Part shown: piece by piece, positions 25,987-41,596 of the stretch
Position numbering within the stretch: the first letter of the stretch is position 1
Layout of the letters: every line of letters starts with the position of its first letter
DNA from: Oscillospiraceae bacterium
Lineage (GTDB): Bacteria > Bacillota > Clostridia > Oscillospirales > Oscillospiraceae
Assembly: GCA_017436785.1 (NCBI GenBank)
Contig: JAFSCK010000028.1
Span: 1 to 43,301 of the forward strand
Direction of reading: 5' to 3'
Length of the DNA: 43,301 nt
Made by a program: the position numbers and the translations under genes
Notes under the pieces: generated by a model
The model's input: the letters and a program-made list of their open reading frames with translations, nothing else
Told to the model about the DNA's origin: nothing
Database searches by the model: none

Positions 25987-26385
25987 ATGACTGAGATGAA
26001 GAAACACATTTATGATGAGAACAATGGCCTTTGGTATGAACTCATTGGCGATTATTATATTCCGGTTCTTACCCTGTCCTCTGAGGAACAGCGCTCTATT
26101 GGGAAATGGGGACGGATGCACCGGGAGTACCTCAAAGAGCATCGTCCGATCCTCTTTAACGACCTGATTCTGAGCGGTCAACTCTGGACATATCTGGCTG
26201 ACTTGAACGAGCAGGCGCAGGAGCGTTTGTCCGTGATCGTCGAGCAGATGAAGGAAGCCGAGGGTGTAACCGAGGACTTGAAAGCATCTGACCAGATGGC
26301 GTGGGTTGGTGCTATGAACAGTATCCGCAACCGGGCAGAGGAAATCATCCTCCGAGAACTGATTTACGGGGAGGATGTGGCATGA
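25987..26385 (+). CDS. tnpV: TnpV-family transposon-encoded protein
   Basis: A 132-residue protein matching the TnpV family found in Clostridia transposons and integrative elements. Recognisable segments are IYDENNGLWYELIGDYYIPVLTL, the IGKWGRMHREYLKEH block and AQERLSVIVEQMKEAEGVTEDLKA. The function is not established; it is a marker of mobile elements. Start ATG follows AAGGAG. The stop overlaps the next gene as ATGA. Confidence 0.88.
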   Translation: MTEMKKHIYDENNGLWYELIGDYYIPVLTLSSEEQRSIGKWGRMHREYLKEHRPILFNDLILSGQLWTYLADLNEQAQERLSVIVEQMKEAEGVTEDLKASDQMAWVGAMNSIRNRAEEIILRELIYGEDVA

Positions 26386-26705: not shown

Positions 26706-28448
26706 CTATTGTCCCATTTCTACAAACTGTTGATATGTAAAAATTTTGTCCTCACCCACAAGGGTTGTTAAAAACGCTCTAAAAACAGGATCAACCGGTA
26801 CAGTGACAAAAAAGAACAGTCTTTTCCTTGGCCTTGAACAGCACACATAGAAAAGATTTCTGTTTCGTTCAAAGGATGCCTCTTTACCTTTTGGGATAGC
26901 AGAATGACCTGTTATCATCGGTGCATAGGTTTCAAATTGGTACTGATTCCATCCTTTGCTTACAACAAAAACAACATTGTCATATTCCTCGCCTTTGACA
27001 CCATGCTCAGTGGAGAAAACTGCTTCCGGATATAAAAAGTCTATCGCAGCCAGAAACTGTGTGTATTCCAACTCCAAGAAGGATCGAATTGTAGTTTCCG
27101 CAATATACATTGTTTCCGGAGCATCATGGTACAAACGATAATATCCATCCAGTTTGGGCGGCATAGGAATTAACTCGGTTTGACAAACCAGTTCTAATAC
27201 ATCAATAGCTTTTTTGGTTCGTGCTTCTGCCAATTGTTCCCGGAGTTCCTGCCATTTTACCTTCTCAGACTTTTTTGTGATAGGATAGCGCTTGATGTCA
27301 AGTGTATCAAACAGTAGTTGTGTATTTGCTGTGCAGAGGGCTTTGTACACGGGTTCAACAGTATTCATAAAGAACAAAAGAAACGGATCTTCTTTGTTGC
27401 GAAGCCCATCGCCCAAAACATCTAAAAGTTGCTCATATCCTTGCTGAGTTGCGAGCACTTTATGAGTAATCATCAGGATTTTTAGGCTTTCATCATTTGG
27501 GGTATCCCGCTTTATTTTCGCTTCTATTTCATCTAAGCGGGCTTTTAGCACCTCAGGAGGAAGCTCACCTTTGAAATTACGGTCTGTGCGTCGAGTGCCA
27601 GTATAATCTTCACAGGTAATTACAACAACTTCTCCATCAAACGCATCAATCGCTGATTTTTGGGGCAAATCGGGCCGAATATCATTAAGAAGCTGTACAA
27701 TTCTCGGTGCAGATCTAAAATTTGAGTTTTTCTTGATTACGTCGATGTTGTCATGTTCAATTGCCCCGCAAGCTTTGTTGGACTGATAGATAGTTTGCCA
27801 AGCATCACCGAAAAACCCGAATTGTGGTCCGCTACCTTTCGCAATAAAATGATCAACAAAGCGGTCGATAATAGGCTTATAGGAGTCCTGATATTCATCG
27901 ATTAGAATTAATGGATACTTATCCGCAAACACACGGCGAAACTTAGCATTATCCAAAAGTAAGCAAAACAGTTTTAGAACATCGTCATGATAAAGGTACT
28001 GAATTCCATTTTCTTTATATCGATGTCCCAAATTATAATCAACTTTAGTGACCTTATAAAAGTCGCCCTCGTCTGGTAGAAAATCAGGATTTGTTGTGAC
28101 AGCTTCAATCAAAACACTCTGATACTGTTTGATGGCATTCCAGGCAAACGAGTGAATCGTGGAAGGGAGAATGAAGGAATCTTTTGCCAGTCGCTCTGCA
28201 ATCACATCTACGGCCGCATTTGTATACGTAATACAGACCACATTTTGTTTCTTTCGGCTGTAATCAGACCTTTTATTTGCTTGTATCCATTCAATGACTC
28301 GATTCAGAGAGTAAGTTTTGCCAGAACCCGCACCTGCTTCAACACGGAAACTGTGTCCGGACTTAAGTGTTTCGATAATCTGTGCATCAACCTTGTCAGC
28401 CTCAGCTTTTGCAAGATCGTAATTTCCGCTAATATACTCTCCACTCAT
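26706..28448 (-). CDS. gajB: UvrD-like superfamily 1 helicase, Gabija GajB-like
   Basis: A 580-residue SF1 DNA helicase. Motif I is EAGAGSGKT (about 37-45), Ia CITYTNAAVD, II LIDEYQDSY (Asp184, Glu185), III FGDAWQTIYQ, V STEHGVKGEEYDNVVF and VI LFYVCCSRPRKRL. The gene follows an OLD-family nuclease gene by 14 nt. That pairing defines Gabija phage defence, in which GajB acts with GajA on DNA. It is longer than the reference B. cereus GajB (about 494 residues). Last gene of the five-gene cargo operon. Start ATG follows AAGGAGG. Alternative: a stand-alone UvrD repair helicase, less likely given context. Confidence 0.82.
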   Translation of the reverse strand: MSGEYISGNYDLAKAEADKVDAQIIETLKSGHSFRVEAGAGSGKTYSLNRVIEWIQANKRSDYSRKKQNVVCITYTNAAVDVIAERLAKDSFILPSTIHSFAWNAIKQYQSVLIEAVTTNPDFLPDEGDFYKVTKVDYNLGHRYKENGIQYLYHDDVLKLFCLLLDNAKFRRVFADKYPLILIDEYQDSYKPIIDRFVDHFIAKGSGPQFGFFGDAWQTIYQSNKACGAIEHDNIDVIKKNSNFRSAPRIVQLLNDIRPDLPQKSAIDAFDGEVVVITCEDYTGTRRTDRNFKGELPPEVLKARLDEIEAKIKRDTPNDESLKILMITHKVLATQQGYEQLLDVLGDGLRNKEDPFLLFFMNTVEPVYKALCTANTQLLFDTLDIKRYPITKKSEKVKWQELREQLAEARTKKAIDVLELVCQTELIPMPPKLDGYYRLYHDAPETMYIAETTIRSFLELEYTQFLAAIDFLYPEAVFSTEHGVKGEEYDNVVFVVSKGWNQYQFETYAPMITGHSAIPKGKEASFERNRNLFYVCCSRPRKRLFFFVTVPVDPVFRAFLTTLVGEDKIFTYQQFVEMGQ

Positions 28449-28462
28449 GAACTGGCACCTCC

Positions 28463-30451
28463 TTACTCAAGAACTCGTTGGTAATTTAACCATTTTAATC
28501 CGGATTTTATGTAATCAGGAATACAATAATCGGAGCATTTATAGATCAAATCGAGTGCAAAATCTGTTTTGCTCTTGCCCGTGAATTCAAGCTTCTTCTC
28601 GCTTATTTTATTACCTAAATTGTAATGCTTTCGATTGACATTACGAATTGCCTCTTCCAGAGAGTGTCCACATAATCCATTTTCGGCAGTTTGGAACTCG
28701 ATATGGCATTTCCCTCTGGTTTTTTCATCCGACGTCATTGCAATAATGTTCGAAAGGGCAATTTTTGAGGTATCATCGTCAGGAAGGCCTTTATTTCTAC
28801 GAATCCACCACTTTATCGTCTCGTTAGATGTCGTCTCGCCTTCGCTTACAACTACCGATTTTTTTACGATCTTTCCACCTTTTCCTTTTCGATCCGCTAC
28901 TGAATCCAGATCAGTAAGAATTAGACATGGCACTCCTAAAAAATCGATAAAAGGAATAAACTTGTGCGCATAGGCTCCACCGATTTCAATTACCGCATAG
29001 TACTGTGCAGATAACGGGTACTTGCAGACACCAAATATTCCGGAAGCTTCACACTTCCCGATCATGTCTGGTAACAGCAAACGCTCAGAGGCACCTTCAA
29101 CAAAAATTGCTTTATCTGCAAAGAAAAGATCGCATCTCGTCAAAGTCAAATACTTCCGGATAAAATCTACATTATCGGGGTTAGCTTCAGCAAAGGTATT
29201 CAAGTTTTTATAAATAACACCGGTATTAGATTTCTGTGAGTAACGAATCTTTGAGAACTCCATGGTATTTGCTATGTGAGCAGAATGCGAGGTTAAAAAA
29301 GTTTGGATTTTCACAGCAGAGAGCTTGCCGAGAAACTTTTCTAAATACGTGGCAAAAGCAGTCTGCATTTGTGGATGCATATGAGATTCCGGCTCTTCAA
29401 TAAAGAGCAGCGGAACACACGCAACACCACGTTTCTCAATATCCTTGGCAAATGCAGCAAGAAGGAACTGCATTTTAATCAGATTCTTATAGCCAAGGCC
29501 ATTGTGAGAACTCGGCAAGCTTTCATTTGCAGTTTCGGAGATATAAGATAGCTTGGTCTGATTCTTGATCTGATCGTCGATGCTGAGCTGAGTTGTAACC
29601 CCAAGCTTTAATTCCTCTATGTTGGGATAACCAAAGCCAATAGAATTGTTCACGACGGAGCTCAGTATTTCGTCACTTTGCTTTTGAACATCTTTGTTGG
29701 CTTTTTCGACTATTGTACGCAACCGCTTGATTTCTTCTGCAACTTCCGGAGCCAAATCTGCTTCACTCATATCAAAGAAACCAGAAATAAGTGAGCCAAG
29801 AGAACTGTTATGGGCATCATCTTCACCAAGAACTCTTTCAGCGGGAATTGCATGGAATGGGAACAAATCGTGCAGTTCTTTTTGACTTTTTACCTGTTTG
29901 TCCTCCATGTTGTTTGGATTGATGGCATATACGGTTAATCCAAACAATTTACCAAAATTATCAGCAAGTACCTCGTGCGCTTCTTCGCTTGGTGAAAAAG
30001 AGCCGTCCTTATAATAGCTACTTTCTAAGAGTGCCCACAAGGTTTTTTCGTCAGTTTTTAGTCGATACTCTGCACGAATCAGAGCAGTTGTTGTGTCCAC
30101 ATCGACATCGATAATGAAAGGTGACAAAGCCCCCAAATTATCATCCGGGTCATCTAACGAATAGTCTACCAGAAAGTCTATGGAGATAACTTCGATCTGC
30201 TTGCAAAGTTCCTCATAAGAGAGCTTTTTCTCCATAAACAGCGCAATTTTAGTGTAGAATTCTTCCCGCCTTAACAGTGGATAGTCATTGAAAGATACGT
30301 CATCTCCATCCAGCACATTTCCAATACACGAAAAACACGATGTTTTGGCTGTGTTGTTTCTACCCACAATTAAGGTTGTCTTGGGATCGACCTCCAACTC
30401 GGCATCAATAAGCAATCTGTAGTTTTTTATTTTTATCTTTGATAATTGCAT
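28463..30451 (-). CDS. gajA: OLD-family ATPase/TOPRIM endonuclease, Gabija GajA-like
   Basis: A 662-residue protein. The N-terminal ABC/SMC-like ATPase has Walker A GRNNTAKT (30-37), a long helical insertion (about 230-310), a signature-like SSHNGLGYKN, Walker B LLFIEEPES (358-366) and the H-loop TSHS (397-400). The C-terminal TOPRIM domain has FVEGASE (Glu452, Glu456) and LTDLDS (Asp514, Asp516). This is the layout of OLD nucleases and GajA, which cleaves or nicks DNA when nucleotide levels fall. It is followed by a UvrD helicase gene. It is longer than reference GajA (about 578 residues). Start ATG follows GGGGAGG. Confidence 0.85.
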   Translation of the reverse strand: MQLSKIKIKNYRLLIDAELEVDPKTTLIVGRNNTAKTSCFSCIGNVLDGDDVSFNDYPLLRREEFYTKIALFMEKKLSYEELCKQIEVISIDFLVDYSLDDPDDNLGALSPFIIDVDVDTTTALIRAEYRLKTDEKTLWALLESSYYKDGSFSPSEEAHEVLADNFGKLFGLTVYAINPNNMEDKQVKSQKELHDLFPFHAIPAERVLGEDDAHNSSLGSLISGFFDMSEADLAPEVAEEIKRLRTIVEKANKDVQKQSDEILSSVVNNSIGFGYPNIEELKLGVTTQLSIDDQIKNQTKLSYISETANESLPSSHNGLGYKNLIKMQFLLAAFAKDIEKRGVACVPLLFIEEPESHMHPQMQTAFATYLEKFLGKLSAVKIQTFLTSHSAHIANTMEFSKIRYSQKSNTGVIYKNLNTFAEANPDNVDFIRKYLTLTRCDLFFADKAIFVEGASERLLLPDMIGKCEASGIFGVCKYPLSAQYYAVIEIGGAYAHKFIPFIDFLGVPCLILTDLDSVADRKGKGGKIVKKSVVVSEGETTSNETIKWWIRRNKGLPDDDTSKIALSNIIAMTSDEKTRGKCHIEFQTAENGLCGHSLEEAIRNVNRKHYNLGNKISEKKLEFTGKSKTDFALDLIYKCSDYCIPDYIKSGLKWLNYQRVLE

Positions 30452-30496
30452 AGTTTGATTCCTCCCCTAAAAGAACTTAGAGGTTCAAAAATGTTG

Positions 30497-31549
30497 TTAA
30501 AGACTTTGGAGAATAGAAATCCGATCCATTGCTACATTTCTGGCTTTTTGTATATACGACTCCATATATGCAAAATCTGGGGCTCCGTCAGCCTTAACAG
30601 GCAGTTTAATGACGTCTTGCTTCATATCTTCCAGCTTCCACTTATCATCATATTCATGCAATCCACCTACACACTTGATGATAGGTGCAAAAAACAAGGC
30701 GATATCTTCGTTCATGTCAAATTTTGGATATAGAACATTTACATCATCTGTGGCCCAATACGGCTCAGACTGATAGAATGTTCGCCCGATATCGGAACCG
30801 TTATAGCAGACAGTTAAAGTATTAGCTGGATGAAGGTGTTCTTCGTTAGAAATATACGTTGTAATACCGTTGTTGAACGACGAAGCACCTACATACCTGA
30901 TAGTACCTTCTCGCATTTCGGCTTTGGTAAGACGACTGCCTTTGACTACATCAAATAGTTCAGAAATAGAAAATTCTTTCCACATTGATAGGTCTAACGC
31001 TGTTTTTGGCTTTTTAGAAACACAATTTAGATTATCGAGATAATGACGAGCTTTGCCCTCGATTTCTTTCATAAACCGTTCCATGTAATCATAATCCGGT
31101 GTGCCATCACTTGTCGCAGGAAGCTTGACAGCAATCTCTTTTGCTATTTCACGAGTGAATTTAAAAACATAGTCAAAGCCTAATGAAAAGGCAGCCTTTT
31201 TCATCTCCGTTAAAAAGAACAGCAGAGAATACTTTGTCCATTTTTCTTTGCACTCTGGTTGAGGATATAATCCTTGTACATGAGGGTATCCTACAAAAGC
31301 ATCTTCTTGGTAAAAAATCGCATCCGCCGAAGTGGTGTCACTAAAAGTTATTATATTACCTGCTTCTGTTGTGGGGAGATTGGTGTATCCTCCTATGCCA
31401 TTATTGTAACTCGAGTTTACGACTACGGGATTAGATCCACCATCTTCAAACAATCTACTATTTGTCAACTTGTATGCTTTCGTGGGATGAATATCAAACA
31501 TTGATCCTATTTTGAATGCCTTCCATGTCGAAGTATCTATTTTAGCCAT
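30497..31549 (-). CDS. hsdS: Restriction-modification specificity subunit (HsdS / BcgI-B-like)
   Basis: A 350-residue DNA-recognition subunit made of two similar halves. Each begins W-(K)-x-F-x-I-x-x-(M/L)-F-D (near residues 9 and 190) and ends with an LP-DG-PD-YME helix segment. The two target-recognition domains imply a bipartite recognition site. Its size is close to BcgI B (about 341 residues) and smaller than many type I HsdS. The ATG at 31549 overlaps the methyltransferase stop by 8 nt; an in-frame GTG at 31558 is too close to the GGAG. The recognised sequence cannot be predicted from sequence alone. Confidence 0.88.
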   Translation of the reverse strand: MAKIDTSTWKAFKIGSMFDIHPTKAYKLTNSRLFEDGGSNPVVVNSSYNNGIGGYTNLPTTEAGNIITFSDTTSADAIFYQEDAFVGYPHVQGLYPQPECKEKWTKYSLLFFLTEMKKAAFSLGFDYVFKFTREIAKEIAVKLPATSDGTPDYDYMERFMKEIEGKARHYLDNLNCVSKKPKTALDLSMWKEFSISELFDVVKGSRLTKAEMREGTIRYVGASSFNNGITTYISNEEHLHPANTLTVCYNGSDIGRTFYQSEPYWATDDVNVLYPKFDMNEDIALFFAPIIKCVGGLHEYDDKWKLEDMKQDVIKLPVKADGAPDFAYMESYIQKARNVAMDRISILQSL

Positions 31550-33329
31550 CTGATTCACCGACTCCTTTTACTGTAATAGATACCGTATCTTCTTCTTTTG
31601 AAATAACGCTATCGAACAACACTTTGTTTGTAACGGAATCAGCAAAAGACTTTACATCAATACCGTTCTGAAACATTAGATAATGCATCATGGTTTTCAC
31701 AAAATCTTCGTCGTACAAGTCATAGTCTTTTTTAGGAATCTGGTAGCTAAGCGCTTCTGCAGGTTTCAACCACTGAATGGTGTCATTACCGGATTGCTTT
31801 CTAATAATCTCAACCCATGTATCCTCAATGCTTTGCCACCTATCTTTAATGTCCTGTCGCCCTTGGTTCTTGACTGTCTCAAGTCCGTCATCTTCAATAT
31901 AGCAAGCGAATATTTCTCGTTTATTCTGCGGGACGCCAGCCTCAAAGATGAAAATTGACGTAGTAACACCCTCGGAGAAGACTTTTTCAGGAAGTTTAAT
32001 GATTTTATGCAAAGTGCTATGCTCAAGCAGTTTTTTGCCTTTTCTGTCTTTTTCTAACTTTTTATCCGGAAGAATAAATGCACATTTAGTTCCCTTCGCA
32101 ACGCTTCTCAATACATTATCGACAATGACAAGACAACCATATTTGGACTCAAACGGAGGATTCATCAAAACCTTTGTGATGTTTTTAGACTTAATCCAAT
32201 CGCAAGCTTCCTGTGTCCGGCTATCCAACTGTTCCAAATTGGTTTTGCCATCTTTGTGAATGAGCATATTAGCGCAAGCCAAAGCGAAAATTTCACGATC
32301 AAATTCGATTCCGTAAAGCTGTACATCTTTGATTGTGGCAGCCTTCTTGGTTTTTACACCACCGGCTTCTTTCACCATATTACACATGGCTTTTACAAGG
32401 AACGCACCGGACCCGCAGGCTGCATCCAACACTCGATCGTCTTTGTCAACGTCAATCAAACGATACATAAAGGATGTAATATGGTCAGGAGTGAAAACCT
32501 GTCCACTGTCCGATTTTTTCTTGTAACGATTGAATTCGTTGAAGAAGATACCCATTACATCTTCGCCGTTCCAGAAATCGGAATTTACACAATCAGAAAT
32601 CTCGGCAATCCATTCAATAAAATTGTCGATTGCGTCCTGATTGGTGGTGTTATTCATTTTGATTTCAGAATAGACTTCAATCAACAAATCAAGCTTGAGG
32701 TTTTGTTTTCTGCTTTCTTCCAAAGATTTTGAAAGAGTACTCAGAATGGAGTTCTTCATTAAAGTAAACGCCATTCCTTTAACTAATAAAGCACCATAGC
32801 GTTTACCAACTAATGCGCACGCAGTAAAGATCATCCTGTGGTACAAGTTCTTGATGCCAAAATCAAAATGGAGACAATCGTTTATGCGCTTAGTAAGCGT
32901 ATAGATCTGCTGCTTGTCAATTGCGTTCTTAGTAAACAGGGTCAGATAGTACGATTTGTCTTGCAATGTGGGTGCCGTGGATTCTGCCTCAATGTTATCA
33001 AGAAAAATGCGAACAGTTTTGCCGTTATAGAGGATTCCGACAACATGCTTATACTGTGTTAGGGCGATGTTGCAGTTTTTTATCAGCTCTTTCGCCCACT
33101 TTTGCAAAGAAACATCCTCTGCTTCTGATTTTGTTTCGAGAATAATTGCAGGAATCCCTTTATCATCCGGGAGATACCAACCATCGGGCTTATCGATAAC
33201 TCCCTTAAATCCCAATTGATTAAAGGTTGTAATTTGACCGGTTCCTTGTTTGACTTTGGGTTCTGTTTTGTCGAAGCCAAGTATTAGCTTAGCGCTATCT
33301 CTAACTTCATCTTCTGTTCTATAATTCAT
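31542..33329 (-). CDS. Fused nuclease and N6-adenine methyltransferase subunit of a restriction-modification system
   Basis: A 595-residue protein with two functional parts. Residues 1-115 resemble the HsdR N-terminal PD-(D/E)xK nuclease fold, with FKGVID (Asp46) and ILETKSE (Glu65, Lys67). Residues about 215-480 are a type I/IIG methyltransferase: VFTPDHITSFM, motif I DAACGSGAF (302-310) and motif IV NPPF (390-393). With the specificity gene behind it and no separate hsdR, the layout resembles BcgI-type (type IIB) enzymes, in which one chain cuts and methylates. Alternative: an HsdM with an inactive N-terminal domain. Start ATG follows AAGGAGAG. Confidence 0.85.
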   Translation of the reverse strand: MNYRTEDEVRDSAKLILGFDKTEPKVKQGTGQITTFNQLGFKGVIDKPDGWYLPDDKGIPAIILETKSEAEDVSLQKWAKELIKNCNIALTQYKHVVGILYNGKTVRIFLDNIEAESTAPTLQDKSYYLTLFTKNAIDKQQIYTLTKRINDCLHFDFGIKNLYHRMIFTACALVGKRYGALLVKGMAFTLMKNSILSTLSKSLEESRKQNLKLDLLIEVYSEIKMNNTTNQDAIDNFIEWIAEISDCVNSDFWNGEDVMGIFFNEFNRYKKKSDSGQVFTPDHITSFMYRLIDVDKDDRVLDAACGSGAFLVKAMCNMVKEAGGVKTKKAATIKDVQLYGIEFDREIFALACANMLIHKDGKTNLEQLDSRTQEACDWIKSKNITKVLMNPPFESKYGCLVIVDNVLRSVAKGTKCAFILPDKKLEKDRKGKKLLEHSTLHKIIKLPEKVFSEGVTTSIFIFEAGVPQNKREIFACYIEDDGLETVKNQGRQDIKDRWQSIEDTWVEIIRKQSGNDTIQWLKPAEALSYQIPKKDYDLYDEDFVKTMMHYLMFQNGIDVKSFADSVTNKVLFDSVISKEEDTVSITVKGVGESDG

Positions 33330-33387
33330 GGTTTCTCTCCTTGTTTTTATTCCAAGGCTTTCTTAATAAGCCATTCGTTGCAAACGG

Positions 33388-34689
33388 TTAACCTTTTCTG
33401 TACTTTGTTTTTCTGCCGCTTCCGTCCTGATAGATCAGGCCGTCTGTAACCATGCGTTTTAGAATACGGCTGGCCGTTGTTTGACTGACATCCAACAGTT
33501 GATCCACATCGCTACGCACTACATAGCCGTTTTTGGCAATCAGATCCAGAATCTTTTCTTCATTGGATTTGCGTTCGTTAGATATGGTATCCGTTGCCTT
33601 AGCGGCATTTCTATTGGGGAGTGTGATTTTGAAAGCGTTGTTTGTTACTTCAATTTTAGGCTCCAATCCTGTGCCTGCGTATGCTTTCATAATTTTAGGC
33701 ATACCGGTTCCGTAAGCTTCAATCAGCTGCAAGCGATAGAAGATAGCTGCTAATTTCGGATTTCTGCAAACAGAGAGCCCGAGCATAATGTCATCCAGAG
33801 TGATTCCAGTAGGTAGACCGCCTACGGATACAAATTCGATTCGGTCATCATAGATACTGACAAGGGTGCTGGCACTAAAAGAATAGTCCCTGTGCACCAG
33901 AGAATTCATCAGAGTTTCTCTCAGCGCATCCTCGGGGTAATCTCTGGTATCAGTTCGGTATAGCCCTTCAAATGTGGCCTTGGTTTGATTGTGCAGATCG
34001 AGATAGGAATACAAATCCTCCATCTGCTGAAACAGCGAACCGGTGAATTCCCGTCTATCCTGGAAGACGCTTTGATCAACACCGGCAAAGGTCGCAGCCT
34101 TGATGGTGTTCGGACATTGTTCAGACAGAAGTAACGCTACATTGGAGTAAATACCGTCCTGGGAAACCATTCCCAATGTCTGCATCTTGGCAGCATCGTA
34201 GGGAACATTCCGCTTGGAAAACTGCGCCTCAGTTGCCTGAAATGACAGATTCTGTTCCAAAGAGCGCATAGATTCAAAACTGTCGCCATCGGTTTCTTTA
34301 ATCATTTTTCGGATGGCAGTATCAGTGGCAGGATCTGTAGATGTACCGTTGCGGACATACACGCCGCTGGGCTTTAATCCCTTGCTACCCAGATAATAGG
34401 GACGGTCTGTACCCTTCTGAATAGTCACGGCGATAATTTGCTTATCATCTATCACCTGTGTTTCGTAGTGGACAAACATCGTAACATCAGGTTTGATGGA
34501 ATCCCGAACCATGTTATTTATTTGCAAGGTAACTCGGTCGGCGCTATCCACGCCAACCACCGTACCATTGTCCTCAACACCAATGTAAAGGGTACCACCT
34601 TTTGTATTGGCAAAGGCAATCACCTCTTTGCAAAGGTCTGCAACAACCGAAGACTTGAGTTCGATAGTTTCGCTCTCAATAAATGTCAT
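33388..34689 (-). CDS. AlbA_2 (Schlafen-type) and winged-helix putative regulator
   Basis: A 433-residue protein. The N-terminal AlbA_2 (divergent AAA-4) domain spans about 1-125, with ETIELKSSV, EVIAFANTKGGTLYIGVEDNG and GVYVRNGTST. A central GHKL-like ATPase-related (HATPase_c_4) region holds ETLMNSLVHRDYS and FVSVGGLPTGI, then AYGTGMPKIM. The C-terminus is a winged helix (about 375-430, VDQLLDVSQTTASRILKRMV). Such proteins are often called ATP-dependent DNA-binding or transcription regulators. It is first in the cargo operon, so it may control it or act in the defence response; both are inference. Start ATG follows AGGAGG. Confidence 0.88.
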   Translation of the reverse strand: MTFIESETIELKSSVVADLCKEVIAFANTKGGTLYIGVEDNGTVVGVDSADRVTLQINNMVRDSIKPDVTMFVHYETQVIDDKQIIAVTIQKGTDRPYYLGSKGLKPSGVYVRNGTSTDPATDTAIRKMIKETDGDSFESMRSLEQNLSFQATEAQFSKRNVPYDAAKMQTLGMVSQDGIYSNVALLLSEQCPNTIKAATFAGVDQSVFQDRREFTGSLFQQMEDLYSYLDLHNQTKATFEGLYRTDTRDYPEDALRETLMNSLVHRDYSFSASTLVSIYDDRIEFVSVGGLPTGITLDDIMLGLSVCRNPKLAAIFYRLQLIEAYGTGMPKIMKAYAGTGLEPKIEVTNNAFKITLPNRNAAKATDTISNERKSNEEKILDLIAKNGYVVRSDVDQLLDVSQTTASRILKRMVTDGLIYQDGSGRKTKYRKG

Positions 34690-34719
34690 AAGGCACCTCC
34701 TGTAGTTTTCTTAATCACC

Positions 34720-34748
34720 ATTATAGTCATTATAGTCGTTCTTGTCAA
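34720..34748 (-). promoter_or_regulatory. Perfect consensus promoter of the five-gene defence operon
   Basis: On the minus strand, TTGACA (34743-34748), a 17-bp spacer and TATAAT (34720-34725) fit the housekeeping sigma factor exactly. The spacer ends in a second GACTATAAT, so GACTATAAT occurs twice in tandem with a 9-bp period. The duplicate could be an operator for the AlbA/wHTH protein or another repressor. The AlbA gene starts about 30 nt downstream. Confidence 0.85.
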
Positions 34749-34834
34749 TTTGTATTCGTGTGATGATTAGAAGAATAAGAAGATAAAAAGCTTTCACTAA
34801 AGCAAAATGCCAGTCATTGTCTGGCAAATCAACC

Positions 34835-34885
34835 AAATAAAACGCTGCAATTTCCTTCGTGTGTGGAAATTGCAGCGTTTTATTT
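34835..34885 (-). terminator. Strong bidirectional intrinsic terminator
   Basis: A perfect 21-bp stem (arms 34835-34855 and 34865-34885) with a 9-nt loop TTCGTGTGT. It reads into TTTTATTT on the minus strand and TTTTATTTTTT on the plus strand. It ends the XRE/membrane-protein unit and insulates the operon promoter at 34720-34748. Confidence 0.93.
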
Positions 34886-34908
34886 TTTGCAGTTCAGGGA
34901 CAATATTA

Positions 34909-35736
34909 TTATCTGTTGCGCACTTTCCCGAAAGACAGCATACTGTCAGCTTGTCGCTTTGTCTCTATAGCGATTGTTTCAAATGTAGACCCCGTGAGTT
35001 GCAGTAATGTCCGGTATTTTTCTTCATATGCCTGAACTAATTCTGTGTTAAGTTGCGTTATTTGCAGGTTGATATTTTCGTAGCTTATCGTTTTGATTTT
35101 TTCTACAACTTCCTCGTTAAGAGCAATATGATCTTTTGAAAAAGAGCCTGGACGCTCTTTTTCAATCCGTAGCATTTCGTGAGCGGCATCTTTGTGTTGC
35201 CAAATTCGAAGATCAGAATACTGATCAATTTCCTTTTGGCTGACATCCACAAAGTATTCTGCTGTAGTTGCAATGCCATCGATTAATTCCTTGAATTTTG
35301 GGTAATCACTCATATTCAAATGGACATTCAACAGATCATTGGCCATTTTACAATCCAACTGATATCTCTGCAAGAGATGGATTGCCTTTGATGGATCAGT
35401 AAAACCATTATCCATCACATCTTTAAGAACCCTCATGGGATTGATGTCATTTAAGATCTGCAGAAAAATTTCTCTGAGCCTATCCCACTTCTCATTTTCA
35501 TTTTTTAGAAAAGAGTCTCTTTGGATTTGCCTTTTCGTAAACGCTATTGTTACGATGATTGAAATCACGGCAATCACTGAACCCAATATCGTTCCGTAAT
35601 ACCCCAGAACATCCGGACCATCCCATACAGTTATGTAGCCACAGTTGGCCTTATAACATTCGTTGATTATGATTGGAATGCCGATAATTAAAAAAACAGC
35701 TCCTAATATTATGAGGAACTTAGTTCTTTTTGACAT
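34909..35736 (-). CDS. Two-TM membrane protein with long helical cytosolic domain
   Basis: A 275-residue protein not matched to a known family. Two membrane helices (about 7-25, FLIILGAVFLIIGIPIII; and about 45-66, YYGTILGSVIAVISIIVTIAFT) are followed by a charged alpha-helical domain (70-275) with coiled-coil-like stretches. Start ATG follows AAGGAGG. It lies 32 nt downstream of the XRE gene on the same strand and ends before a strong terminator, so the two form a unit. Placed beside restriction and Gabija-like genes, it could be an effector or sensor of a small defence module; that is inference only. Confidence 0.75.
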   Translation of the reverse strand: MSKRTKFLIILGAVFLIIGIPIIINECYKANCGYITVWDGPDVLGYYGTILGSVIAVISIIVTIAFTKRQIQRDSFLKNENEKWDRLREIFLQILNDINPMRVLKDVMDNGFTDPSKAIHLLQRYQLDCKMANDLLNVHLNMSDYPKFKELIDGIATTAEYFVDVSQKEIDQYSDLRIWQHKDAAHEMLRIEKERPGSFSKDHIALNEEVVEKIKTISYENINLQITQLNTELVQAYEEKYRTLLQLTGSTFETIAIETKRQADSMLSFGKVRNR

Positions 35737-37752: not shown

Positions 37753-37782
37753 GGCGCAATTATACACCACCTAAAGATGGTG
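37750..37782 (-). other. oriT: Putative oriT of IncQ/MOBQ type
   Basis: On the minus strand, an inverted repeat CACCATC-TTTA-GGTGGTG (37765-37782, six of seven pairs) is followed after a short AT stretch by TAATTGCGCCCTA (37750-37762). IncQ-type origins have the same layout, an inverted repeat then a TAA(G/A)TGCGCCCT nick core. The site lies between the DUF3847 gene and a MOBQ relaxase gene, where such origins are usually found. Confidence 0.75.
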
Positions 37783-37986
37783 ATTGCGTTCTGCCGAAAG
37801 CCCCTTGCAGGGAGCTTGATGATTTCCGCAAAAGTTCCTTACTCCAATCATCCAGGGGAAGCTACACTTCCCCTGCGCTGGTTTTGCCAGCTACCCCTTT
37901 GTAGACTTGCCGCCCAGGAACGATTGCAGGTGCAATCATTCTTGGGCAACAAGTTGATATTTCATCGAACAGGAGGTTTGATCGAA

Positions 37987-39585
37987 ATGCCGGTTCCCCA
38001 TCTGGAAATACGAATTATTCAGAGAAGCAAAGGCAGCTCTGCTGTTGCCGGAGCCGCTTACCAAGCCGGAGAAAAATTGTTTTCTGAGTACGACCAGAAA
38101 TCCAAAGATCACCGAAGAAAACAGCAGGAAGTTGTTTACACGGAAATCATGCTTCCAACAAACGCCCCTCCTGAATATGCAGACCGGGCAACACTCTGGA
38201 ACTCTGCAGAGGAAGTTGAGAAGCAATGGAACTCGCAGCTTGCAAGGCGTTTTGTGATTGCCCTGCCCAGAGAAGTTCCGCTTGATATGTGCCCGCAGAT
38301 GCTGCAGGAATACTGCAAGGAGCATTTCGTGTCCAAAGGAATGTGCTGCGATTTTGCAATCCATGACCCAGATCCACCGGGACACAATCCACATTGTCAC
38401 ATCATGCTGACCATGCGAGCTATTGACGAAAACGGAAAGTGGCTGCCCAAGAGCCGAAAGGTTTATGACCTTGACGAGAATGGTGAACGCATCCGATTAC
38501 CGTCCGGCAGATGGAAAAGCCATAAGGAAGATACCGTTGACTGGAACGAACAGTATCACGCCGAGGAATGGAGACACGGATGGGAAGTTATTCAGAATAA
38601 ATATCTGGAACTTGCCGGAAGTTCCGAACGTGTGGATATGCGTTTCTATGAACGGCAGGGCGTTGATGTGATCCCGACAGTACACATGGGAGCCGCCGTG
38701 TCTGCTCTGGAACGCAAGGGCATTGAAACCAACATCGGCAATCTCAATCGAGATATTAAGGCTGCCAACCGCATGATGAACGCCATTCGCAGCACCATCA
38801 AAAATCTGCGAAACTGGATTGCAGATATTCTGGAAGCTACCAAAGAAGCCTTTTCGGAAATGGAAGCCGAAAAGAAAAATGCTTCGCCCGACCTCTCCAC
38901 TCTGCTCCGTGATTATATGAATCTGCGAAAGGCAGAGCGTAGCGACTGGTCGAGGTACGGACAGCAGAAAGGCACAGCCGATGATTTGAAAGCAGTTTCT
39001 AAAGCTCTGATCTATTTGAAAGAACATGAGCTTTTCACTCTGGAAGATTTGGACACCGCCCTGCAAGGCGTGAACGAAAAAGCCAGAGCCATCAATGCCG
39101 ATATGAAGAAGGCATCTGCCCGTATGAAAGTCATTACCGGTATTCAGAACGCCGTGGCAGACTGCCAGACCCACAAGGCAATCCATGACAAATATATTAA
39201 AATCGGTTGGAAAACAAGACAAGCTGCCTTTGCCGAAAAGCATAAGGACGAGCTGACTGCCTACAACAAGGCGTACCGCACTCTGAAAAAGCATGGTGTT
39301 GATTTGAATGTAAATCTGGATGCACTGCAAACAGAATACGACGGTCTGAAAGCGACCCACGCCGAGCTTGCCGGACAGCTTGCTACCGTCAAAGAGGAAT
39401 TGCAGCCAATGAGAGATATTCGCTACTGGGTCGGTAAAGTCCTCACACCGGAACAGTCCGAGGTTCAGAAAAAGCCTGAACCGAAGCACTCCCCGTCCGA
39501 ACAGATCAAGTTCTATCAGGAACAGGAAAGACAGAAACAAGAGCAGAAATCTCCGCAGTACAAAAAACAGAATATGGAACTCTAA
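37987..39585 (+). CDS. mobL: MobA/MobL (MOBQ) relaxase
   Basis: A 532-residue relaxase that would nick oriT and lead the strand into a recipient cell. The N-terminal domain has the MOBQ features: nucleophile tyrosine in AGAAYQAGEK (Tyr25) and the histidine triad in PGHNPHCHIM (His133, His136, His138), preceded by FAIHDPD (His126). The rest (about 260-532) is helical and coiled-coil-rich, ending in a Q/K-rich tail. The start is the ATG at 37987 after AGGAGG. The open frame back to 37777 crosses the oriT and is not coding. A helper conjugation system is presumably needed. Confidence 0.95.
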   Translation: MPVPHLEIRIIQRSKGSSAVAGAAYQAGEKLFSEYDQKSKDHRRKQQEVVYTEIMLPTNAPPEYADRATLWNSAEEVEKQWNSQLARRFVIALPREVPLDMCPQMLQEYCKEHFVSKGMCCDFAIHDPDPPGHNPHCHIMLTMRAIDENGKWLPKSRKVYDLDENGERIRLPSGRWKSHKEDTVDWNEQYHAEEWRHGWEVIQNKYLELAGSSERVDMRFYERQGVDVIPTVHMGAAVSALERKGIETNIGNLNRDIKAANRMMNAIRSTIKNLRNWIADILEATKEAFSEMEAEKKNASPDLSTLLRDYMNLRKAERSDWSRYGQQKGTADDLKAVSKALIYLKEHELFTLEDLDTALQGVNEKARAINADMKKASARMKVITGIQNAVADCQTHKAIHDKYIKIGWKTRQAAFAEKHKDELTAYNKAYRTLKKHGVDLNVNLDALQTEYDGLKATHAELAGQLATVKEELQPMRDIRYWVGKVLTPEQSEVQKKPEPKHSPSEQIKFYQEQERQKQEQKSPQYKKQNMEL

Positions 39586-39651: not shown

Positions 39652-40320
39652 ATGAATGTATTTGAAGCGGTCAAACAGACCGTTACCACCCGACAGGCAG
39701 CAGAGAATTACGGTATCCATGTCAACCGGGCAGGAAAAGCTAACTGCCCCTTTCACAATGATCGGACACCCAGCATGAAAGTGGACAAGCGGTTTCATTG
39801 TTTCGGTTGCGGTGTCGATGGAGATGTGATTGATTTTACAGCACAGCTATATGGGTTAGATGCAAAGTCCGCCGCCGAAAAACTGGCTGCGGACTTTCAA
39901 ATCCCCTATACACATCACAAAAGAAAGGAAACGGTGAAAAAGACCATCAGAGAAAAAACGGAGGAGCAAATGTACCGGGAACTGGAATCCAGATGCTTCC
40001 GGGTATTATCAGATTATTTTCATCTGCTCCGGCGTTGGGAACGGGTATACGCCCCAAAACCAGAAGATGAAACATGGCATCCATTGTTCGTGGAAGCCCT
40101 GCAAAAGAAAGACCACATCGAGTATTTACTGGATGTACTGCTGTACGATTCCATCGAGGAGCGTGCGGCGCTTATAAAAGAATACGGAAAGGAAGTGATG
40201 AAACTTGAACGGCGATTATCAGAGCTTGGCACCGGAGCTGAGAGAGAATTTGAAGATGCTGGCAGAGAACCGGCTCTGCAAGACCCCGGAGGAAGTCAGG
40301 GAGCTTCTGGAGGTGAATGA
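39652..40320 (+). CDS. CHC2 zinc-finger primase-like protein
   Basis: A 222-residue protein with a DnaG-type CHC2 zinc finger: Cys32, His35, Cys50 and Cys53 in CPFHNDRTPSM and FHCFGCGVDGDVIDF. The region after it (about 110-200) is helical and contains no TOPRIM domain, so it is a primase fragment of the type found on these elements. It probably works with the VapE-type protein in element replication. The start is the ATG at 39652 after AGGAGG. Its last 116 nt overlap the next gene in another frame. Confidence 0.9.
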   Translation: MNVFEAVKQTVTTRQAAENYGIHVNRAGKANCPFHNDRTPSMKVDKRFHCFGCGVDGDVIDFTAQLYGLDAKSAAEKLAADFQIPYTHHKRKETVKKTIREKTEEQMYRELESRCFRVLSDYFHLLRRWERVYAPKPEDETWHPLFVEALQKKDHIEYLLDVLLYDSIEERAALIKEYGKEVMKLERRLSELGTGAEREFEDAGREPALQDPGGSQGASGGE

Positions 40321-41596
40321 TAAAGGGCAGGTAAAAAACACCATGCAGAATGTGTATCAGGTCTTTCAGTCCGATCCGGTACTGCATGGAGCCATCGGCT
40401 ATAACATCCTCACCGGGCGCATTGACATATGCAAGCCCCTGTGGTGGGAGCGCACCACCTCTGCCATGAGCGACACGGATTTCAACTACCTCATGCTGTA
40501 TCTGGAAAAACGGTACGGGCTGAACAACGAAAACCGCATCCGCAGAGCGCTGACGGTGGTTGCACACCAGAATCAATACCACCCGATCCGGGAGTATCTG
40601 AACCGTCTGGAATGGGATGGCACAGAACGCATTCCCTATGTACTTCATCACTTTCTGGGTGCAGAAATCTGTGCGTATGGCACCGAAGTCATGCGGCTGT
40701 TTCTGTTGGGAGCCATTCACCGGGTATTCAGACCGGGCTGCAAGTTTGAACTGATGCTTTGTCTGGTGGGCGGACAAGGAGCCGGTAAGTCTACCTTCTT
40801 CCGCTTTCTTGCCTGTAAGGATGAATGGTTCTCCGATGACCTGAAAAAGATTGATGACGATAATGTGTTCCGCAAGATGCAGGGACACTGGATCATAGAA
40901 ATGTCGGAGATGATCGCCACAGCCAATGCCCGGAGCATCGAGGATATTAAATCATTCCTGAGCCGATCCAAGGAAACCTACAAGGTTCCCTACGCAACGG
41001 AGCCGGAGGACAGGCTTCGGCAATGCGTGTTCGGCGGCACTTCCAATGCGCTGGACTTTCTGCCCCTTGACCGCAGCGGAAACCGCCGCTTTCTTCCTAT
41101 CATGGTACATCCCGAACAGGCAGAGGTACACATTCTGGAAGATGAAGCGGCATCCCGGAAGTATATGGATCAGTTGTGGGCAGAAGCCATGATCCTTTAC
41201 CGACGAGGAAAGGTGCAGCTGAAACTGTCAAAAGAGATGAACGAACAGCTGGTTCTGCTGCAAAAGCAGTTCATGCCGGAGGACACCAAGGTGGGCGTAA
41301 TACAGGCGTTTCTGGATGATTTTGATGGAGATATGGTTTGTTCCAAGCTGCTCCATCACGAAGCTCTGGGACGCTTTGTCGAGCCGAAATCGTGGGAGAT
41401 ACGGGAGATCAACGAGATTATGAACCAGTCCGTGACAGGCTGGATTCCTTATCCCAATCCCAGAAGCTATAAGAAGTACGGCAAGCAAAGGGGCTGGATG
41501 CGTGGAAACGAAACGGTGGAAACCGGGGCAAGCCCCTTGGATGGTTTTCGTGAACTGACCGAGGAAGAATGCAATCAGATGGAACTGCCGTTTTGA
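40205..41596 (+). CDS. VapE-family (virulence-associated E) primase-helicase protein
   Basis: A 463-residue P-loop protein of the VapE family. The N-terminal region (1-140) resembles the bundled domain of these proteins; the ATPase has LVGGQGAGKSTFFR (P-loop 189-196) and a HWIIEMSEM Walker B. The segment FGGTSNALDFLPLDRSGNRRFLPI is typical of SF3-like helicases of phage and element replication. The likely start is a TTG at 40205 with GGAAG upstream, because the N-terminal sequence from there fits the family; the next ATG is at 40256. The gene overlaps the primase gene by 116 nt. Confidence 0.9.
   Translation: MNGDYQSLAPELRENLKMLAENRLCKTPEEVRELLEVNDKGQVKNTMQNVYQVFQSDPVLHGAIGYNILTGRIDICKPLWWERTTSAMSDTDFNYLMLYLEKRYGLNNENRIRRALTVVAHQNQYHPIREYLNRLEWDGTERIPYVLHHFLGAEICAYGTEVMRLFLLGAIHRVFRPGCKFELMLCLVGGQGAGKSTFFRFLACKDEWFSDDLKKIDDDNVFRKMQGHWIIEMSEMIATANARSIEDIKSFLSRSKETYKVPYATEPEDRLRQCVFGGTSNALDFLPLDRSGNRRFLPIMVHPEQAEVHILEDEAASRKYMDQLWAEAMILYRRGKVQLKLSKEMNEQLVLLQKQFMPEDTKVGVIQAFLDDFDGDMVCSKLLHHEALGRFVEPKSWEIREINEIMNQSVTGWIPYPNPRSYKKYGKQRGWMRGNETVETGASPLDGFRELTEEECNQMELPF

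Follow-up and report, generated by a model that had tools for sequence, protein, structure and literature searches.

The 43,301-nt stretch of DNA analysed here (the window), which is contig JAFSCK010000028.1 of an Oscillospiraceae bacterium (GCA_017436785.1, a genome in 174 contigs with 7% contamination), carries a minus-strand run of five genes in which a Gabija pair, gajA-gajB, lies directly downstream of a restriction-modification (RM) pair, itself preceded by a gene of Schlafen type that we call the leader. The placement of Gabija immediately after RM or methyltransferase genes is real and recurrent and occurs with several RM types, although it is not universal. From its upstream end, the run and its putative control features are as follows:

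34835..34885, minus strand: terminator-like hairpin with a 21-bp outer stem and a 9-nt loop, from the fold of 34790-34905
34720..34748, minus strand: perfect sigma-70 promoter, TTGACA-17-TATAAT, both hexamers matching at 12/12 positions
34720..34746, minus strand: three imperfect 9-nt tandem units, operator-like, read by eye, spanning the -35 to the -10
33388..34689, minus strand: leader, Schlafen/AlbA_2 plus GHKL ATPase plus winged-helix protein, 433 aa (Pfam)
31542..33329, minus strand: BcgI-like Type IIB RM subunit, PD-(D/E)xK nuclease plus N6-adenine methyltransferase, 595 aa (Pfam, PADLOC, alignments)
30497..31549, minus strand: specificity (S) subunit with two target-recognition halves (Pfam, PADLOC), overlapping the RM gene by 8 nt
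28463..30451, minus strand: GajA, OLD ABC ATPase plus TOPRIM nuclease, 662 aa (PADLOC PDLC00063, 7e-216, residues 1-660)
26706..28448, minus strand: GajB, UvrD-like helicase, 580 aa (PADLOC PDLC00113, 2e-205), 14 nt past gajA

The initial annotation described five closely spaced genes on one strand behind a single perfect consensus promoter, and both parts of this description stand. The five open reading frames (ORFs), with intact motifs, run from 34689 down to 26706 and are spaced, in order, by 58, −8, 45 and 14 nt (the third gap had been put at about 50 nt); the 8-nt overlap follows from an ATG start of the S gene at 31549, and an alternative GTG at 31558 would give 17 nt. TTGACA-17-TATAAT, which starts 59 nt 5' of the first start codon, is the sole exact match in the window and did not occur in 100 shuffles, and further promoter-like sites between 26 and 38 kb are about as frequent as chance predicts (29 vs. 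24.6 expected, standard deviation 5.3). None of 300 shuffles gave a tandem repeat as good as the one over the promoter when periods 7-12 were scanned. The hairpin (z −6.46; 0/200 shuffles equally stable) separates the upstream gene from the operon promoter.

The gene identities first proposed, including OLD plus UvrD as Gabija and methyltransferase plus S as RM, agree with both Pfam and PADLOC. GajA matches AAA_15 (7e-35) and OLD-like_TOPRIM (2e-16) in Pfam, and domains and gene order mark gajA-gajB as Gabija, with anti-phage activity and complex formation being predicted. The RM subunit matches N6_Mtase (3e-29), and PADLOC gives a near-tie between REase-MTase IIG (128.6 bits) and a Type I methyltransferase (127.8 bits). 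Its nuclease motif, which Pfam did not detect, is seen in alignments: D49, E65 and K67 of PD-(D/E)xK are invariant in all 88 proteins compared (the window and 87 relatives, one of 88 relatives having been omitted for want of a full ORF), and NPP[FY] is present in 87, the remaining row being gapped. The S subunit matches Methylase_S in two stretches (6e-28) and Specificity_II of PADLOC (1e-39). Since the chain has a nuclease motif and S is encoded separately, the pair is best placed as BcgI-like Type IIB, a family that cuts DNA on both sides of its recognition site. Searches of PDB sequences returned distant relatives only, and NCBIfam added little. MADS was considered and rejected, since NF047738, the model for the MAD2 methyltransferase, gave 54.2 bits against a cut-off of 720.

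To see how often Gabija lies behind RM genes, we collected GajA relatives by GajA alone from genomes of the order, class and phylum and read their flanks. This yielded 32 loci, of which L168 (no GajB) was set aside to leave 31, and L166 (no upstream gene) to leave 30. Methyltransferase or S genes lie in the same-strand run upstream of gajA at 10 of these 30 GajA-ascertained loci, where L128, with one upstream gene known, is counted as negative, and L042 and L081, which were found via the RM search, are outside the count even though they are on the GajA tree. The upstream partners are:

L177: BcgI-like RM (as also in the window and L042)
L156, L176 and L179: Eco57I pairs
L172: Eco57I methyltransferase and ResIII
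L129: C5 methyltransferase, Eco57I methyltransferase and HNH
L163: N6_N4 methyltransferase
L126: D12 and N6N4-Mrr
L127: N6 methyltransferase and S, frame-broken
L125: S alone, at a contig end

A further gene, HNH or ResIII, separates the methyltransferase from gajA at L129 and L172. Under a strict one-gene rule, a same-strand methyltransferase or S gene lies directly upstream of gajA at 8 of 30 loci, compared with 2 of 279 other genes of the same loci (Fisher 1.2e-7, with kinship ignored and with the genes of the same loci, rather than another defence family, as the comparison set), and both exceptions among the 279 sit between a methyltransferase and gajA. The position is one-sided. A homology search with the RM genes that had been found placed no methyltransferase or S gene downstream in any of the 31 loci, 26 of them offering more than 3 kb past gajA (the flank is shorter in L155, L158, L164, L172 and L180). 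The queries of that search were the methyltransferases found upstream, whereas a methyltransferase-motif scan, which is free of this bias, gave 17 candidate genes upstream and none downstream. Looser neighbourhoods were also seen: L162 has methyltransferase/S genes upstream on the other strand and L171 has them 7 kb away, neither being adjacent; among the plasmid and phage loci considered below, a truncated MmeI gene stands three genes upstream in L134, a type II RM methylase lies some 5 kb upstream in L183, and at L191 a gene with a TaqI-like specificity domain follows a Fic gene downstream of gajB.

On a GajA tree of 47 rows, the RM label requires 7 changes, 6 of which are forced by starred branches, and it is more clustered than in shuffles (3/500 as low). 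All six members of the window's own GajA clade stand beside RM genes (the window; L042 and L081, found via RM; and L125, L126 and L127, independent of RM). Because the RM partner types differ, these patterns argue for repeated assembly of RM-Gabija combinations. We found no description of a recurrent Gabija-behind-RM arrangement in the open-licence PMC literature, as covered by titles, abstract openings and selected passages. Two side observations concern the Gabija loci themselves: the filamentous Pseudomonas phage PfAC02b (L193) carries an annotated gajA-gajB pair, and AbiEii toxin genes lie close to gajA, on either side, in L127 (1391-2311), L128 (11473-12153), L185 and L191.

Approached from the RM side, the same locus falls apart into modules. 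The comparison comprises 89 RM loci (L029-L117), from 80 of 171 relatives plus 9 viral loci, with the RM gene partial in L115. An S match accompanies the RM gene in 86 of these 89 loci, the exceptions being L033 and L034, which break off at that point, and L115, which is partial. Where 3.5 kb or more follow RM (69 loci), Gabija is present in 3; where 1.5 kb or more precede it (75 loci), an AlbA relative lies directly 5' of RM in 2; L029 counts in both. The full five-gene set occurs in the window and its near-copy L029 only, and the other 88 loci, some of them incomplete, never combine AlbA with Gabija; a fixed five-gene system is thus rejected. The initial annotation had inferred one coordinated five-gene system and had named independent variation of the modules as grounds for refutation; the survey of co-occurrence and order does not support a conserved set, the modules varying independently: L042 has RM-S-gajA-gajB without AlbA, L050 has AlbA-RM-S without Gabija, and in L081 RM-S faces an inverted Gabija. 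In L126, TnpV, gajB, gajA (71%) and part of a helix-turn-helix (HTH) gene (66%) match the window's DNA, while D12 methyltransferase and N6_N4 methyltransferase-Mrr genes replace AlbA, RM and S, so that L126 appears to be this element with its Gabija retained and its RM swapped. On the gajAB side the DNA match of L042, L081, L125, L126 and L127 stops at the gajA start (30451/30452). The locus would accordingly consist of three portable modules: the leader with its own promoter, the BcgI-like RM plus S, and gajA-gajB.

The near-copy L029 comes from another goat-gut genome. Between about 26.7 and 36.2 kb most 250-nt bins show 98-100% identity; lower values are 94% at 33.5 kb and 96 and 92% at 35.25-35.75 kb. 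Outside this block identity is about 83-97% (one short edge bin, 76%). Because the block is near-identical while the flanks differ, the pattern is most simply read as a recent exchange, in one piece, of the five genes plus two upstream neighbours, bearing in mind that L029 is a metagenome-assembled genome and that an assembly error could lie behind the block pattern.

Two side observations concern the RM pair. The S match is half-length or fragmented in L053, L057, L068, L113 and others, and identity can be much higher in one half than in the other, which suggests target-recognition swapping or phase variation of S. Further, at about 27 of the 89 RM loci (within L030-L117, counted by reading the listing) a small same-strand ORF of 60-104 aa, in some cases HTH-like by eye, ends 4-26 nt 5' of the RM gene and thus occupies the slot that AlbA fills in the window.

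The leader matches SLFN_AlbA_2 (4e-24) and HATPase_c_4 (2e-17), with C-terminal winged-helix matches under the Pfam cut-offs (best 24.9 vs. 27 bits), and its domain order, AlbA_2/Schlafen followed by GHKL and winged helix, is that of Schlafen-histidine kinase-winged helix-turn-helix (wHTH) accessory proteins. In an alignment of six rows E5 and E10 are invariant and residue 39 is acidic in five; these we take to be the catalytic acids, their roles being carried over from eukaryotic Schlafens, and RNase activity may be retained. Four more AlbA relatives, at 47-80% identity, were found among 26 genomes. In L200 the relative precedes an N6_N4 methyltransferase gene, in L202 it is followed by a GIY-YIG gene and type I HsdR/HsdM genes, in L199 it faces type I RM genes with two genes between, and in L201 it has no RM nearby; the AlbA gene, too, is often RM-associated. 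No relative was returned when viral_contigs was scanned for patterns from the single GajA and AlbA proteins, an approach confined to close relatives. As a side observation, the gene after the AlbA relative in L202 is GIY-YIG plus DUF4357 by Pfam, a similar ORF follows in L199, both near type I RM, and this gene is possibly a further accessory nuclease.

Both promoter hexamers of the AlbA genes are perfect in four of six loci (the window, L050 and L199 with a spacing of 17; L201 with a spacing of 16), and 11/12 and 10/12 positions match in L202 and L200, respectively. Tandem units of 9 nt like those of the window also lie in L199, again with none of 300 shuffles as good, and AGYGAA half-sites, a motif picked by eye, occur over or beside the promoters of L050, L200, L201 and L202 (p 0.001-0.01). 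Since a strong promoter bears repeats and the protein has a winged helix, these features suggest that the leader is an autoregulator that represses its own promoter.

Around the operon the window holds the following genes:

25987-26385: TnpV gene (Pfam), past gajB and convergent
34909..35736, minus strand: 275-aa gene with no Pfam match, within the block shared with L029, preceding the hairpin and left out of the operon
37777-39585: MobA/MobL relaxase gene, on the other flank of the operon
40205-41596: VapE-like gene, on the other flank of the operon

An HTH gene also lies on the relaxase and VapE-like side. Given the relaxase, VapE-like, HTH and TnpV genes, the host structure looks like an integrative mobilisable element with the five-gene operon as cargo. 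No megablast match for the whole operon was found in the plasmid and phage collections. TnpV-like ORFs were seen by eye past gajB in L126, L127 and L128 and 5' of AlbA in L050, and TnpV may be the marker of a common insertion unit.

Taken together, we consider that the locus is probably a composite anti-phage operon, in which defence is layered under one switch and RM cuts supply ends for Gabija. In this scheme the five genes would be transcribed together, and the leader would repress its own strong promoter via the repeats until relieved during infection. The RM pair would mark self DNA and cut phage DNA that lacks the modification, on either side of its site, leaving double-strand ends, and Gabija would attack DNA opened by RM or escaping it, such that the two layers would cover each other. 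The earlier proposal is supported in part, in that RM and Gabija are linked above chance and the block is near-identical in L029, but a fixed five-gene set is not supported.

Several points weigh against this composite operon. The scheme is built from sequence, and the hand-off from RM to Gabija is inferred. Gabija lacks RM directly upstream at 20 of the 30 evaluable loci, and at all 13 plasmid and phage Gabija loci (12 of 42 records with plasmid GajA matches, and 1 of 2 phage records, were examined) the directly upstream gene bears no methyltransferase or S name, gene names being the only criterion and several neighbours being unnamed. The presence of Gabija in 3 of 69 RM loci means that RM does not need Gabija. 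Pfam was run on more upstream than downstream genes, the GajA tree comes from a quick search and has long branches, its label changes may reflect loss as well as gain, and the AGYGAA half-site was chosen after the sequences had been viewed. Finally, PMC12407980 proposes that Gabija of P. aeruginosa acts on linear DNA lacking RecBCD, and says that it acts on ends not loaded by RecBCD; according to its abstract, the way in which Gabija distinguishes self from non-self is unknown, with RecBCD-free linear DNA offered as the cue. Ends made by RM would therefore count only where RecBCD/AddAB is absent or blocked.

It is possible, although we hold it to be doubtful, that the modules are defence-island neighbours only, with independent RM and Gabija cassettes stacked behind existing promoters and no functional hand-off. 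Stacking would fit the differing modules of relatives, the scarcity of Gabija beside RM-S, the opposite orientation in L081, where RM-S and Gabija are still adjacent, and the plasmid and phage loci in which no methyltransferase is named directly upstream. It does not fit well with the one-sided position (10 loci upstream on the same strand vs. none downstream, and 8/30 vs. 2/279 within the same loci), or with at least six label changes on the GajA tree. If the link were cassette stacking only, the locus would be an ordinary, well-formed defence island, and sequence cannot decide between such stacking and licensing by RM.

A different role for the leader deserves a similarly tentative hearing: the AlbA_2/Schlafen protein might act mainly as a backup suicide RNase when a phage blocks RM, with Gabija as the second backup and regulation secondary. 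Its domain order is that of the BREX-linked Schlafen-histidine kinase-wHTH proteins of PMC12839542, for which such a backup role is proposed. The conserved acids of its alignment would suit an RNase, as would the fact that its relatives adjoin RM genes of several kinds. However, the repeats over the strong promoters of AlbA relatives point to autoregulation, and the catalytic roles of those residues are presumed from eukaryotic Schlafens and judged by alignment.

We think it unlikely that a lineage of Gabija has become an RM-dependent second stage, in which cutting by the upstream RM, whatever its type, would provide the ends or the self/non-self call missing from Gabija, and methylation by a swappable partner would thereby confer specificity on it; the window's GajA clade would then be a specialised form, with the leader as the switch for both. 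The weakest proposal, that of the initial annotation, in which the methylase marks self and AlbA responds to damage or missing modification by releasing Gabija, has one promoter, tight spacing and the near-identical block of L029 in its favour, but we judge it very improbable, as AlbA and Gabija come together in none of the other 88 RM loci, some of which are incomplete. None of our observations speaks to such sensing or release by AlbA, and the promoter repeats agree with an autoregulator.

Compared with known systems, the window's gajA-gajB shares both genes, their order, domain content and motifs with Gabija. Known Gabija is a stand-alone pair, whereas here the two genes come fourth and fifth, after a Schlafen-type leader and an RM pair. 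Recurrent RM-Gabija combinations with differing partners make a natural test of whether the partner's methylation or cutting licenses Gabija. The RM pair shares with BcgI-like Type IIB systems the fused PD-(D/E)xK-N6 methyltransferase chain and the separate S subunit, and differs by the Schlafen-type gene before it (2 of 75 relatives) and by Gabija after it. A close parallel for the combination is in BREX and BREX-related systems: PMC12839542 proposes OLD-TOPRIM pairs and Schlafen-histidine kinase-wHTH proteins as BREX backup effectors, and also mentions RM-like systems in which OLD-family ABC ATPases are coupled to endonucleases (its ref. 52). The window likewise joins both accessory kinds to a methyltransferase-based core, but this core is a Type IIB RM instead of BREX, and the accessory genes comprise a leader at the upstream end and a complete Gabija pair. 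The locus would provide a concrete example, outside BREX, of a single operon with modular and layered defence.

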